This document shows positions 5,666 to 13,052 of a stretch of 33,150 bases of DNA, piece after piece. The DNA is taken from the NCBI GenBank assembly GCA_947479995.1, contig CANKBT010000003.1, positions 1 through 33,150 of the forward strand, written 5' to 3'. The notes beneath the pieces are model-generated. The model searched no databases and had not been told where the DNA came from. It was given only the letters and a program-made list of their open reading frames with translations. The stretch's first letter is position 1, and every line of letters begins with the position of its first letter. The position numbers were made by a program, and so were the translations under genes. The DNA comes from Frankiaceae bacterium (GTDB lineage: Bacteria; Actinomycetota; Actinomycetes; Mycobacteriales; SCTD01).

Positions 5666-6809
5666 CGGCGACGAGCACGCCCTCGCGCAGCAGCCGGCGG
5701 GCGACGACCAGCGCGTCGCCCTCGTCGAGCCCGCCCGCGGCGAGGTCGGCCACCGTGCAGGGGCCGGCCATCGCCACGTCGAGCGCGGCGGCGCAGGACG
5801 CCGGCAGCGCGACGTCCTTGCCGGGCAGGTGCAGCACCTCGCCCTCGCGGCGCACCGGCAGCCCGCGGCGGGGCCGCAGCGGCGTCGCGGGCGCCAGGTC
5901 GCGCAGCGCCGCGGCCGACGCCAGCACGCCGACCGGCTCGGGCGGCACGGCCTTGGCCAGCCGGGCCTGCAGCAGCGCCTCGACCTGCGCGGGCTCCAGC
6001 GCGGCGAGCCACGCGGCCGCCTGCTGCAGCACCTCGGCGACGCCCTGCTCCGGCGAGGGCTGCACCGGCAGCGCGTCGCGGAAGCGCACGTCGCCGGCCG
6101 CGAGCGTCACGGCGTCGGTGAGCACGTCGTACCAGGTCGTGCTGAGGATCCCGATCGTCAGGTGGACCGAGTGGACGTCGGTCGTCAGCGCCGCGTGCAC
6201 GTAGCCGCGGGGCAGGTAGAGGCAGTCGCCCGGCTCGAGCTCGACGTCGAGCAGCGGCTCGGCGCCCTCGGGCACGAGGTGCTCGCCGGCCTGCGGCTGC
6301 GACGGCAGCGGCAGGCGCAGCACCGGCTCGTGCACCAGCCAGCGCTTGCGCCCGCTCACCTGCAGCACGAGCACGTCGTGCGTGTCGTGGTGGAAGTCGA
6401 AGCCCTGCGCGTCGCCGCCGGGGGTGACGTAGGCGTTGCACTGCGTCGGGTGCCCGAGCTCCTCGGCCAGCGCGCGGCAGAACCGCCCGACGGGCGGGTG
6501 CATGCGGTGCAGCGACTGCAGCACGAGGGTGGCGCCCGCGGCGTGCTGCGCCGTCAGGGCGTCGGCGTCGACGAGGTCGCCGATCCGGCGGTTGCCGGCG
6601 GTGACGGTGCGGACGGGCGCGGGCAGGCCGCCGCCCTCCTGCACCGTGCGGAAGAACGGGGTGCGCAGCGCGCGCTCGGCGACCAGCTCGTCGACGTCGG
6701 CGTCGGTCAGCAGGTCGGCGAAGCCGCCGGCGGGCAGCTCCTTGGCGCGCGACAGCAGCGGCGTGCGCGACCAGTGCTCGGCGGCGAACTGCGCCGGGTC
6801 GACCGACAC
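5658..6809 (-). CDS. JmjC/cupin_4-type Fe(II)/2-oxoglutarate-dependent oxygenase (ribosomal-oxygenase-like fold)
   Basis: 383 aa; GFDFHHDTHDVLVLQVSGRKRWLVHEP (HxD metal motif) and LEPGDCLYLPRGYVHAALTTDVHSVHLTIGI (distal His), the layout seen in YcfD/NO66/MINA53-type JmjC proteins. GTG start at 6809. Confidence 0.85.
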   Translation of the reverse strand: MSVDPAQFAAEHWSRTPLLSRAKELPAGGFADLLTDADVDELVAERALRTPFFRTVQEGGGLPAPVRTVTAGNRRIGDLVDADALTAQHAAGATLVLQSLHRMHPPVGRFCRALAEELGHPTQCNAYVTPGGDAQGFDFHHDTHDVLVLQVSGRKRWLVHEPVLRLPLPSQPQAGEHLVPEGAEPLLDVELEPGDCLYLPRGYVHAALTTDVHSVHLTIGILSTTWYDVLTDAVTLAAGDVRFRDALPVQPSPEQGVAEVLQQAAAWLAALEPAQVEALLQARLAKAVPPEPVGVLASAAALRDLAPATPLRPRRGLPVRREGEVLHLPGKDVALPASCAAALDVAMAGPCTVADLAAGGLDEGDALVVARRLLREGVLVAGA

Positions 6810-6821
6810 GCAGCGCGCGAG

Positions 6822-6850
6822 CGCGCCCCCCGGCGGAGCCGGGGGGCGCG
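6822..6850 (-). promoter_or_regulatory. Perfect 13-bp stem, 3-nt loop hairpin between peptide and oxygenase genes
   Basis: cgcgccccccggc (6822-6834), gga, gccggggggcgcg (6838-6850): arms are exact reverse complements. No downstream U-tract on the minus strand. Confidence 0.85.
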
Positions 6851-6859
6851 TCTGCTCGC

Positions 6860-7084
6860 TCAGGGGTTGGCCGGGTCCGAGCCGGCCGGGTCGGAGCCGG
6901 CGGGGTCGACGGCCACCTCGTCGCTGTCGCCCTGGTCGGCGTCGCCGCCGGCCGGGTCGGTGCCGGCCGGGTCGCTGCCCGCGGGGTCGACCTGGGTGGT
7001 GTCGGTGTCGCCCTGGTCGGCGTCGCCGCCGGGCCCGGTCGCCGTGGGGCTGGTGGTGATGTCCTCGTCGCGCAGGCTCGTCAC
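6860..7084 (-). CDS. Small Asp-rich tandem-repeat peptide (candidate precursor/substrate)
   Basis: GTG at 7084 preceded by GAGGAG-N5 (strong SD). 74 aa: MTSLRDEDITTSPTATGPGGDADQGDTDTTQVDPAGSDPAGTDPAGGDADQGDSDEVAVDPAGSDPAGSDPANP. Lies within the longer 6860..7333 ORF. Two 27-aa repeats; 51 bp upstream of the cupin gene on the same strand. Confidence 0.72.
   Translation of the reverse strand: MTSLRDEDITTSPTATGPGGDADQGDTDTTQVDPAGSDPAGTDPAGGDADQGDSDEVAVDPAGSDPAGSDPANP
6869..7030 (-). repeat. Two tandem 81-bp (27-codon) repeats inside the small peptide gene
   Basis: Copies at 6950-7030 and 6869-6949; by-eye alignment about 80% nt identity with most differences in one ~10-bp block (TTQ vs EVA). 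Confidence 0.9.
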
Positions 7085-7150
7085 GCTGTCTCCTCGCTGG
7101 GGGGGCTGTCGGACCCCAGGCCCTTCCCCGTGATCGCCGCGCGACACCGC

Positions 7151-7216
7151 GCGCGAGGCGGACGCGAGACGGACGCGAGGCGGACGCGAGACGGACGCGA
7201 GACGGACGCGCAGTGG
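7151..7216. repeat. 11-bp tandem repeat array, consensus acgcgagRcgg, six units
   Basis: gcgcgaggcgg / acgcgagacgg / acgcgaggcgg / acgcgagacgg / acgcgagacgg / acgcgcagtgg, in the divergent intergenic region between the peptide gene and the SBP gene. Confidence 0.9.
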
Positions 7217-7331: not shown

Positions 7332-8987
7332 ATGCGTCACCGTCCAGCGGCAGCCGTCGGCCTGCTCGCCCTGTCCGCCTCCCTGCTGGCCGCCTGCGGC
7401 GGCGACGACAGCGGCTCCGAGGGCGGCGGCGGCGCCGCCGGCGGCACCCTCGTCTTCGGCGCCTCCGCCGACCCGGTGAGCCTCGACGGCGCCTACACGA
7501 GCGACGGCGAGTCGGCCCGCGTGCAGCGCCAGATCTTCGAGACCCTCGTGACGACCGCCCCGGGCGGCACCGAGATCGAGCCGCTGCTCGCCACGGAGTA
7601 CACCCCGAGCGACGACGGCCTGGCCTGGACCTTCACGCTGCGCGACGGCGTGCAGTTCCACGACGGCACCCCGATGGACGCCGCGGCGGTCTGCTTCAAC
7701 TTCGACCGCTGGTACAACTTCTCGGGCGTCCAGCAGAGCTCGTCGGTGTCGTACTACTGGCAGACGGTGTTCAGCGGCTACGCGCAGAACGAGGACCCCG
7801 AGCTGCCGCAGAGCCTCTACGCCTCCTGCGAGGCGCCGGACGCGACGACCGCGGTCATCAACCTGACCTCGCCGTCGTCGTCGTTCCTCGCCGGCCTCGC
7901 CCTGCCGGCCTTCTCCATCGCCAGCCCCAAGGCGCTCGAGGAGTTCGGCGCCGACGACGTGAGCGGCACCGGCGAGACCCCGAGCTTCGACGGCACCTTC
8001 GGCACGACGGACGCCGTCGGCACCGGGCCGTTCCGCCTGGAGAGCAACGAGCCCGGCACCAGCGTCGTGCTCGTCCGCAACGAGGACTACTGGGGCGAGA
8101 AGGCCCGGCTGGAGCGCCTGATCTTCCAGCCCATCGCCGACGGCCCGGCCCGCCGCCAGGCCCTCGAGGCCGGCCAGATCCAGGGCTACGACCTCGTCGA
8201 CCCGGCCGACCTCGGCGCCCTGGAGTCCGGCGGCTTCCAGCTGCTGGAGCGCCCGGCGTTCAACGTCGGCTACCTGGCCTTCAACACCGCCAAGCCGCCG
8301 CTGGACAACCCGAAGGTCCGCCAGGCCGTCGCGCACGCGCTCAACCGCCAGGCGCTCGTCGACGCGCAGTACCCGCCCGGCTCCGAGGTGGCCAAGGAGT
8401 TCATGCCGCCGGAGCTGTTCGGCTACGCCGAGGACGTCCCCGAGTACCCGTACGACGTCGAGCGCGCGAAGCAGCTGCTCGCCGAGTCCGGCGTGGCGAA
8501 CCCGACGATCGAGTTCTTCTACCCGACCGACGTCAGCCGCCCGTACATGCCGAACCCCGAGGCCAACTTCCAGGCCTTCACCTCCGACCTGGAGGCGGCC
8601 GGCTTCACGGTGACACCGCGCAGCGCCCCGTGGAACCCGGAGTACCTCGACACCGTGCAGTCCGGCGGCGCGTCGATGTACCTGCTCGGCTGGACCGGCG
8701 ACTTCGGCGACCCGGACAACTTCGTGGGCACGTTCTTCCGCACGCAGCAGGCCGCGTGGGGCCCGCTCGCGCCGGAGATCTACAGCCAGCTCGAGGCCGC
8801 GCGCACCGAGGGCGACCTCGAGGCCCGCACGGCGGCGTACGAGGAGGCCAACCGCACGATCATGGAGTTCCTCCCGGGCGTGCCCTACGTCCACACCAGC
8901 CCGTCGCTGGCCTTCGCGCCGAACGTCTCGGGCTACGAGCCGAGCCCGGTCGGCCTCGAGGAGTTCGCGAGCGTCTCGCTCGGCTAG
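7332..8987 (+). CDS. Extracellular solute-binding protein, family 5 (dipeptide/oligopeptide type), lipoprotein
   Basis: ATG at 7332 gives MRHRPAAAVGLLALSASLLAACGGDDSG (signal peptide plus lipobox LAAC), then LVFGASADPVSLDGAYTSDGES...TFTLRDGVQFHDGTPMDAAAVCFNFDRW, a family-5 SBP. Confidence 0.92.
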   Translation: MRHRPAAAVGLLALSASLLAACGGDDSGSEGGGGAAGGTLVFGASADPVSLDGAYTSDGESARVQRQIFETLVTTAPGGTEIEPLLATEYTPSDDGLAWTFTLRDGVQFHDGTPMDAAAVCFNFDRWYNFSGVQQSSSVSYYWQTVFSGYAQNEDPELPQSLYASCEAPDATTAVINLTSPSSSFLAGLALPAFSIASPKALEEFGADDVSGTGETPSFDGTFGTTDAVGTGPFRLESNEPGTSVVLVRNEDYWGEKARLERLIFQPIADGPARRQALEAGQIQGYDLVDPADLGALESGGFQLLERPAFNVGYLAFNTAKPPLDNPKVRQAVAHALNRQALVDAQYPPGSEVAKEFMPPELFGYAEDVPEYPYDVERAKQLLAESGVANPTIEFFYPTDVSRPYMPNPEANFQAFTSDLEAAGFTVTPRSAPWNPEYLDTVQSGGASMYLLGWTGDFGDPDNFVGTFFRTQQAAWGPLAPEIYSQLEAARTEGDLEARTAAYEEANRTIMEFLPGVPYVHTSPSLAFAPNVSGYEPSPVGLEEFASVSLG

Positions 8988-9017
8988 CAGACCCCTCCGC
9001 GACCGCACCCCGCGCCC

Positions 9018-10031
9018 GTGCTCCGCTTCGCCGTCCGCCGCCTGCTCCTGCTCGTCCCGATCCTCGTCGGGCTGTCGATCCTGGTGTTCCTGTTCGTCCG
9101 GGCCCTGCCCGGCGGGCCGGAGACCGCGCTGCTGGGGGAGAACGCCACCCCGCAGCGGACGGCGCAGGTGCGGGAGGCGTACGGGCTGGACCGCCCGCTC
9201 CCCGAGCAGTACCTCCGCTACGTGGGGCAGGCGGTCCAGCTCGACTTCGGCACCTCCACCCGCTACCGCACGCCGGTCGTCGACGAGATCCAGCGCCGCT
9301 TCCCGGCCACGATCGAGCTCGGCGTCTCGGCGATGGCCTTCGCCGTCGGCGTCGGCGTGCCGCTCGGCTTCGTCGCGGCGCGCCGGCGGGGCACCTGGAT
9401 CGACAACCTGTCGACCGCCGGCTCGCTGCTGGGCATCGCCATCCCGGTCTTCGTGCTCGGCTTCCTGCTCAAGGCGGTCTTCGCCGTCGAGCTGGGCTGG
9501 CTGCCGGTCGCGGGCCGGCAGGACCAGCAGCAGTTCTTCGGCGCCGACCACCCGACCGGCTTCTTCGTGCTCGACGGCCTGCTCACCGGCGACCTGCCGG
9601 CGGCGTGGGACGCCGCCAAGCACCTCGTGCTGCCGGCGATCGCGCTCGGCACGATCCCGCTGGCCTTCATCACGCGCATCACCCGCGCGGCGGTGCTCGA
9701 GGTGGTCGAGGCCGACTTCGTGCGCACGGCCGAGGCCAAGGGCATGACGCGCCGGGTCGTCACGCGCCGGCACGTGCTGCGCAACGCCATGCTGCCGGTC
9801 ATCACGATCATCGGCCTGCAGACCGGGCTGCTGCTGTCCGGCGCGATCCTCACCGAGAACGTCTTCGCCATCCAGGGCATGGGGCAGCTCATGGCCGGCG
9901 CGATCGCCGACCGCGACTACGCCGTCCTGCAGGGCGGCATCCTGTTCCTCGCCGTCGTCTTCGTGCTCGTCAACCTGCTCGTCGACCTGTCGTACGGGCT
10001 GTTCGACCCGCGGGTCAGGGAGAGCGGATGA
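9018..10031 (+). CDS. Peptide ABC transporter permease (OppB/DppB-like)
   Basis: 337-aa hydrophobic protein; N-terminal RRLLLLVPILVGLSILVFLFVRALPGGP and EAA-loop region VVEADFVRTAEAKGMTRRVVTRRHVLRNAMLPVITIIG. Confidence 0.93.
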   Translation: MLRFAVRRLLLLVPILVGLSILVFLFVRALPGGPETALLGENATPQRTAQVREAYGLDRPLPEQYLRYVGQAVQLDFGTSTRYRTPVVDEIQRRFPATIELGVSAMAFAVGVGVPLGFVAARRRGTWIDNLSTAGSLLGIAIPVFVLGFLLKAVFAVELGWLPVAGRQDQQQFFGADHPTGFFVLDGLLTGDLPAAWDAAKHLVLPAIALGTIPLAFITRITRAAVLEVVEADFVRTAEAKGMTRRVVTRRHVLRNAMLPVITIIGLQTGLLLSGAILTENVFAIQGMGQLMAGAIADRDYAVLQGGILFLAVVFVLVNLLVDLSYGLFDPRVRESG

Positions 10032-10938
10032 GCCTGTCCCAGGTCGAGGCGGCCGACACCGCCCTCGAGCACCCCGAGGAGGCCTCGGCCGGCCTCACCC
10101 GCGACGCCTTCCGCCGCCTGCGGCGCAACCCGCTGGCCATCGTCGGGGCGTCGCTCATCACCGTGTTCGTGCTCGTCGCGCTGTTCGCGCCGCTGCTTGC
10201 GCCGTACGACCCGGTGGCCAGCGACCTCACCGACATCCGGCCGGGGCAGTTCCCGGGGCCGTCCCGCGAGCACCTGCTGGGCCTCGACGAGCAGGGCCGC
10301 GACGAGCTGAGCCGGCTCATCTACGGCGCCCGCTACTCGCTGCTCATCGGCGTGGTGTCGACGGCGATGGGCGCGACGGTCGGGCTGCTGCTGGGCCTGC
10401 TCGCCGGCGCCTTCGGCGGCTGGGTCGACAGCCTCGTCATGCGCGCGATGGACGTCATGCTCGCCGTCCCCGGCCTGCTGCTCGCCATCGGCGTCGCCGC
10501 GCTGCTGGGCCGCAGCATCACCTCGATCATGATCGCGGTCGCGGTGGTCAACGTGCCGGTGTTCGCCCGGCTGCTGCGCAGCTCGATGCTCGTGCAGGGC
10601 CGCAGCGACTACGTGCTGTCGACGCGCTCGCTCGGCGTCAAGCGCCGCAAGATCGTGCTCGGGCACGTGCTGCCCAACTCGCTCGCGCCGGTCATCGTGC
10701 AGGCGACGCTCGTGCTCGCGACCGCCATCGTCGAGGCCGCCGGCCTGGCCTACCTCGGCCTCGGCTCGGAGGACCCGCGCATCCCCGAGTGGGGCCGCAT
10801 GCTCGCCGTGACCAACGCCTACCTGTCGAGCGAGCCGCTGCTCGCGCTGTGGCCGGGGCTCGCCATCGTGCTGTCGGTGCTGGGCTTCTACCTGCTCGGC
10901 GAGGCCCTGCGCGAGGCCCTCGACCCGAAGCTGCGCCG

Positions 10939-10942
<4 letters not shown>
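10028..10942 (+). CDS. Peptide ABC transporter permease (OppC/DppC-like)
   Basis: ATG at 10028 overlaps the previous stop (ATGA). [30 protein letters not shown]...[24 protein letters not shown]...[30 protein letters not shown]. Confidence 0.93.

Positions 10943-13052
<2,110 letters not shown>

Follow-up and report, generated by a model that had tools for sequence, protein, structure and literature searches.

An Asp-repeat peptide gene preceding a JmjC oxygenase gene in Actinomycetota: a probable RiPP-like modification operon

Introduction

The described enzymes that best match the JmjC protein studied here, both in structure and in sequence, are NO66 (RIOX1), MINA53 and YcfD, with which it has the HxD...H iron site in common. 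NO66 and MINA53 hydroxylate ribosomal His and YcfD hydroxylates ribosomal Arg; we know of no adjacent peptide gene in these systems. JmjC enzymes have also been connected with ribosomal peptides. BipG of biphenomycin biosynthesis is a JmjC oxygenase that hydroxylates a residue of a RiPP precursor (PMC12707348), but it acts on ornithine, and its cluster contains an MNIO, a B12-rSAM and other enzymes and no Asp repeats. RRE-like domains fused to PF08007 have been described under the name JmjC-RRE, with bacterial homologues in RiPP-like contexts (2025, PMC12710340); the combination of JmjC_2 with a C-terminal βββ-ααα domain resembles the protein presented here, whereas the passages of that paper considered here describe no Asp-repeat precursor, ferredoxin partner or actinobacterial distribution. 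In RiPPs, beta-hydroxylation of Asp is known from enzyme classes other than JmjC: nitrilobacillin is a ribosomal peptide with beta-hydroxylated Asp, as is proposed below for the present product, but there an MNIO enzyme modifies a single Asp and the gene set is different (PMC13060819). Finally, the Apd1/Suc_Fer-like ferredoxins include a PF06999-type protein of the kind encoded in the present operon; yeast Apd1 binds a [2Fe-2S] cluster (PMC11126956), but has no known tie to a peptide or an oxygenase. In the literature covered, in which subscription journals are thinly represented so that absence weighs little, no description of Asp-repeat precursors, of their ferredoxin partner or of their distribution was found, and no substrate or role assigned to the actinobacterial JmjC_2 and Suc_Fer genes.

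The locus was found in a stretch of 33,150 nucleotides from a Frankiaceae bacterium (contig CANKBT010000003.1, assembly GCA_947479995.1), hereafter the window. Here we compare its operon, in the order precursor, JmjC_2 (PF08007) and Suc_Fer-like protein (PF06999), with related loci across the phylum.

Results

The peptide has a leader of 20 aa followed by two units of 27 aa each (Table 1); Asp makes up 16 of its 74 residues, Arg occurs once, and Cys, Lys, His and aromatic residues are absent. The initial annotation, made from the letters of this DNA, had described a leader-plus-repeat peptide of such composition, which is borne out by the exact translation and by an 81-bp period detected independently by TRF (6869-7041, 2.1 copies, score 232). 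The DNA of the two units is identical in 62 of 81 bases, and nine codons differ, seven of them nonsynonymously. The same annotation took the duplication to be recent, which is not clearly so, since several related genomes carry both units; its suggestion that repeat number might vary proved right, as relatives have one, partial, two or three units, and the occurrence of two or three units within the single genus g14 illustrates this variation. GGAGG-type sites similar to the ribosome-binding site of the window precede the starts in most relatives. Precursors of all types matched no Pfam or NCBIfam family and the window precursor had no PHROGs match; in particular, the Ca-binding repeat families (EF-hand, dockerin, RTX, TSP3) gave no Pfam or NCBIfam match at E up to 1, either for the window precursor or for its relatives.

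Table 1. Features of the operon and its surroundings in the window (33,150 nt)
Feature	Position	Strand	Evidence or remark
Suc_Fer-like (thioredoxin-like [2Fe-2S] ferredoxin) protein, 289 aa	4796..5665	-	PF06999, E 1.2e-16
JmjC_2 (cupin-4) oxygenase, 383 aa	5658..6809	-	PF08007, E 1.5e-25
Strong hairpin between precursor and jmjC, no T tract	6812..6860	-	-43.9 kcal/mol, z -4.4
Precursor peptide ORF, 74 aa, GTG start (7084) to TGA stop (6860)	6860..7084	-	exact translation, purifying selection, homologous ORFs
Core unit 2, DADQGDSDEVAVDPAGSDPAGSDPANP	6863..6943	-	present, partial or absent in relatives
Core unit 1, DADQGDTDTTQVDPAGSDPAGTDPAGG	6944..7024	-	conserved among family members (alignment)
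Leader, MTSLRDEDITTSPTATGPGG	7025..7084	-	conserved box L-R-D-E-D-I-T-T
Ribosome-binding site GAGGAG	7090..7095	-	sequence; 5 nt 5' of GTG 7084
Dipeptide-type ABC transporter operon	7332-13052	+	between precursor and UbiE-type methyltransferase gene

Among near relatives, the leader and first repeat block contain 122 synonymous and 27 nonsynonymous single-base codon differences, and the resulting dN/dS of about 0.06, a crude value to which codon bias contributes, indicates purifying selection on this part of the peptide. Orthologous loci have open ORFs, and the broken copies that the initial annotation had named as evidence against the peptide did not appear. There is little doubt in our view that the 74-aa ORF is a precursor peptide gene.

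The association of such ORFs with jmjC extends over the phylum. Nearly all jmjC loci of the family and the order with enough upstream sequence have a precursor-like ORF 23-150 bp 5' of jmjC, usually with a ribosome-binding site; in this set the contig end truncates L008, part of L012 is also cut away, and just one of two scans detected L028. In the class survey, which covered 297 genomes and in which the 50 best-scoring jmjC loci were examined, all 50 have an Asp-rich ORF and 48 have clear repeat precursors, the two loci without a true repeat precursor being L104 and L107. By the same definition of Asp-rich, 16 of 1988 random 960-bp stretches drawn from related loci (0.8%) contain such an ORF. 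Every further jmjC locus with upstream sequence in the phylum survey has an Asp-rich ORF, and the loci of family f41, which had been chosen as low-scoring controls, proved to be true members with precursors of the DxD type and were moved into the clade.

Two features by which RiPP loci are recognised, a conserved leader with a variable core and a small precursor gene adjoining a modifying enzyme, are both found in this family. The leader box [LI]-x-[DE]-[DE]-[DE]-[IM]-x-[TS]-[TS] is present in most of the 33 leaders listed, and it is followed by cores of three types: the DPAG type of the window family (DADQGDS...QVDPAGxDPAG), the GGAD type (EGPADGG...HDGGADGGADGGA) and a DxD-rich type (for example DGDATDTTDGD). 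Of the 109 JmjC proteins placed in a tree (quick search, SH-aLRT), 95 form the precursor-bearing group, with a support of 91, and a small Asp-rich ORF lies directly 5' of jmjC in 93 of these 95 loci. The core types track the JmjC phylogeny, with eight changes where the minimum is six and the mean after shuffling is 48.8; the labels behind these counts follow simple motif rules, apart from three rows that were changed manually. L104 and L107 sit on a long branch and have neither a repeat precursor nor an adjacent Suc_Fer gene, while jmjC and intact Fe ligands are kept. In an outgroup JmjC clade (L116, L117, L124, L129), a different short conserved ORF, EVEVEDLxEVTSRDVTAGGDSDGTDSSSDFI, lies 5' of jmjC and is perhaps another JmjC-linked precursor type.

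The gene that follows the precursor on the same strand, jmjC, encodes the single JmjC_2 protein of the source genome. The iron triad HxD...H is kept in the tree group (H140 in 95 of 95 proteins, D142 and H205 in 94 of 95 each; L006 has V at 142), and in the profile alignment the HYD...H motif of NO66 stands against HHD...H of the window protein. The AF2 model (pLDDT 91) finds NO66 in Foldseek with E 3.8e-24, and MINA53 and YcfD also match. Residues 310-381 of the model form four strands followed by three helices, βββ(β)-ααα (strands 310-334, helices 337-375), an order close to the one that defines the RRE, which makes the C-terminal domain a candidate RRE on the basis of the order of its predicted secondary structure; the ribosomal oxygenases likewise end in a winged helix. 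A search of a plasmid collection returned distant cupins from Streptomyces and others, none covering 80% of the query.

The third gene, suc_fer, overlaps jmjC by 8 nt and encodes the one PF06999 protein of the source genome. C135, C143, C144 and H168 are invariant. The model of the protein is similar to the thioredoxin-like [2Fe-2S] ferredoxin of Aquifex (probability 1.00, at a weak E of 0.015) and also resembles an Azotobacter [2Fe-2S] ferredoxin. Suc_Fer lies downstream of jmjC in 39 of the 50 class loci and in most phylum loci; in several near relatives it is about 8 kb away, and the Pfam search for it found none in three genomes with jmjC (G037, G049, G174). Counted by genome, PF06999 is present in 49 of 52 genomes with jmjC versus 111 of 245 without it (p 8e-12), and within family f8 in 10 of 11 versus 0 of 13 (p 6e-6), although both p values are overstated because related genomes are not independent.

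The operon sits amid menaquinone genes: o-succinylbenzoate-CoA ligase and UbiA prenyltransferase genes flank it at one end, and a UbiE-type methyltransferase gene is found past the dipeptide-type ABC transporter operon at the other. Since the precursor and the methyltransferase gene directly adjoin in six near relatives, the transporter operon is taken, among the loci seen, to be an insertion peculiar to this genome. The gene family of which the UbiE-type methyltransferase is the window member adjoins the operon in different bacterial families and in varied orientations (L053, L056, L058 and the near relatives). Besides jmjC, suc_fer and the methyltransferase gene, no gene recurs at loci across families. 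Genes for leader removal or export, which are common in RiPP clusters though not universal, are missing from the cluster, and among the loci seen neither a peptidase nor an exporter is a recurrent neighbour of its genes.

Which residue could be oxidised was judged from 59 cores. Asp, Gly and Ala occur in all of them, and no other residue does; Cys occurs in none, and for each of Ser, Thr (in the GGAD type), Pro, His and Gln there are cores that lack it. His is present in 23 of 27 GGAD cores, 1 of 13 DPAG cores and 3 of 19 DxD cores, and Pro in all 13 DPAG cores and in 11 of 19 DxD cores. Asp is therefore the likeliest target, as no other side chain that is readily oxidised occurs in every one of the 59 cores.

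Discussion

The gene set, the conserved leader, the purifying selection, the co-occurrence of the genes, the cores that track the enzyme tree, the intact iron site, the structural match to protein-residue hydroxylases and the precedent of BipG support a RiPP-like modification operon, whereas the lack of a dedicated linked protease or exporter, the fact that the nearest solved enzymes are not Asp hydroxylases, the distant or missing Suc_Fer gene of some genomes, and the two loci without a repeat precursor speak against it. On balance, an operon that uses the JmjC protein both to recognise the leader and to oxidise the repeat core appears probable, and the broader statement that this enzyme is the modifier of the Asp-repeat precursor is likely. 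As the precursor lies directly 5' of an iron oxygenase of which it is the probable substrate, the family looks like an undescribed type of enzyme-modified ribosomal peptide.

The steps of such a pathway can be outlined as follows. The precursor would present the acidic box LRDEDITT in its leader and, behind it, a repeat core of Asp, Gly and Ala; the JmjC protein would bind the leader, probably through its C-terminal winged-helix or RRE-like domain, and would use its Fe(II)/2OG site to oxidise the core at several residues, most likely by beta-hydroxylation of Asp. The thioredoxin-like [2Fe-2S] protein may supply electrons or keep the iron reduced. The product would be a poly-(hydroxy)aspartyl peptide, soluble and probably disordered, that either serves within the cell or leaves it by general export routes, and its most likely role would be the binding of metal (Fe3+ or Ca2+). 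Leader binding, the choice of Asp, electron transfer and the metal role are what we infer from the gene set and the conserved features. For Asp as the site of JmjC oxidation the case is reasonably good; the guess of beta-hydroxy-Asp, voiced in the initial annotation, gains weight because the next gene proves to encode a 2OG/Fe(II) JmjC oxygenase, and the part of it that concerns the site itself keeps its conjectural character. Metal binding by the repeat peptide is plausible, although we predict it only tentatively.

The enzyme might also modify the peptide elsewhere than at Asp, that is, at the His of HDGG cores, at the Pro of DPAG cores, at Thr or Ser, or by a side-chain cross-link. The activity of NO66 and MINA53 on His, the frequency of His in GGAD cores and the presence of Pro in every DPAG core favour such a site, but none of these residues occurs in every core, and we regard this as unlikely. 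The resemblance to ribosomal oxygenases can be carried further, to a YcfD/NO66-type enzyme that acts on a ribosomal protein and has the peptide as its regulator, decoy or inhibitor. The closest folds are indeed those of ribosomal oxygenases, the YcfD role could fall to the only JmjC_2 protein of this genome, and two members of the clade do without a repeat peptide; however, long repeats of variable number are more to be expected of a substrate with many sites than of a regulator, and the enzyme, unlike a conserved ribosomal modification, is absent from most genomes of the class, which makes this explanation quite improbable.

Two further explanations concern the peptide itself. The initial annotation read the Gly-Gly before each unit as a possible processing site that releases two 27-mers. 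This Gly-Gly is present in the window, but C39 peptidases (PF03412) are absent from the source genome, which is 89% complete, no linked transporter-peptidase was seen, relatives carry one or partial units, and in other clades GG is part of the GGAD repeat; both the context of GG and the unit number vary. Two free 27-mers are thus unsupported, and the double-glycine explanation, with two bioactive 27-mers, is left with a very small probability. That the ORF is a low-complexity product of high GC without function could be argued from the long spurious ORFs that GC-rich DNA yields here on several frames; the similar leader, position and ribosome-binding site throughout the phylum, the purifying selection, and an Asp-rich ORF in 93 of 95 loci where 0.8% would be expected reduce this chance to a negligible one.

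The main meaning of the precursor locus is carried by its operon partners, JmjC and Suc_Fer, which the initial annotation had missed, and conversely the JmjC_2 and Suc_Fer genes gain a conserved peptide partner. Should Asp prove to be hydroxylated in the repeats, they would constitute a phylum-wide peptide class in which repeat number is a tunable trait, and they would provide a bacterial setting where the substrate of a NO66-like enzyme is not ribosomal. In its widest form the proposal is an Actinomycetota-wide RiPP class, in which a multiply beta-hydroxylated poly-Asp peptide serves as a genetically sized chelator of metal (iron or calcium), intracellular or secreted, and is made by a JmjC-RRE enzyme with its own [2Fe-2S] donor; taken as a whole this is speculative and rather doubtful.

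Several details concern the expression of the operon. The N-terminal ALxRC motif of the JmjC family is encoded 5' of GTG 6809 and in the same frame (window 6809-6864), with no in-frame ATG, GTG or TTG preceding it, and the start of jmjC may be a CTG that overlaps the precursor stop. The hairpin between the two genes was considered as an intrinsic terminator and rejected, since it has no T tract and no intrinsic terminator was found there. Comparable hairpins follow the precursor stop in about 8 of 12 near relatives, and the putative role of this structure may be to set the ratio of precursor to enzyme or to stabilise the precursor mRNA. Upstream of the precursor, in the divergent intergenic region, an 11-bp tandem repeat, CGCGAGACGGA, is present in 5.4 copies (window 7152-7210), and these repeats are possible candidate sites for a regulator.
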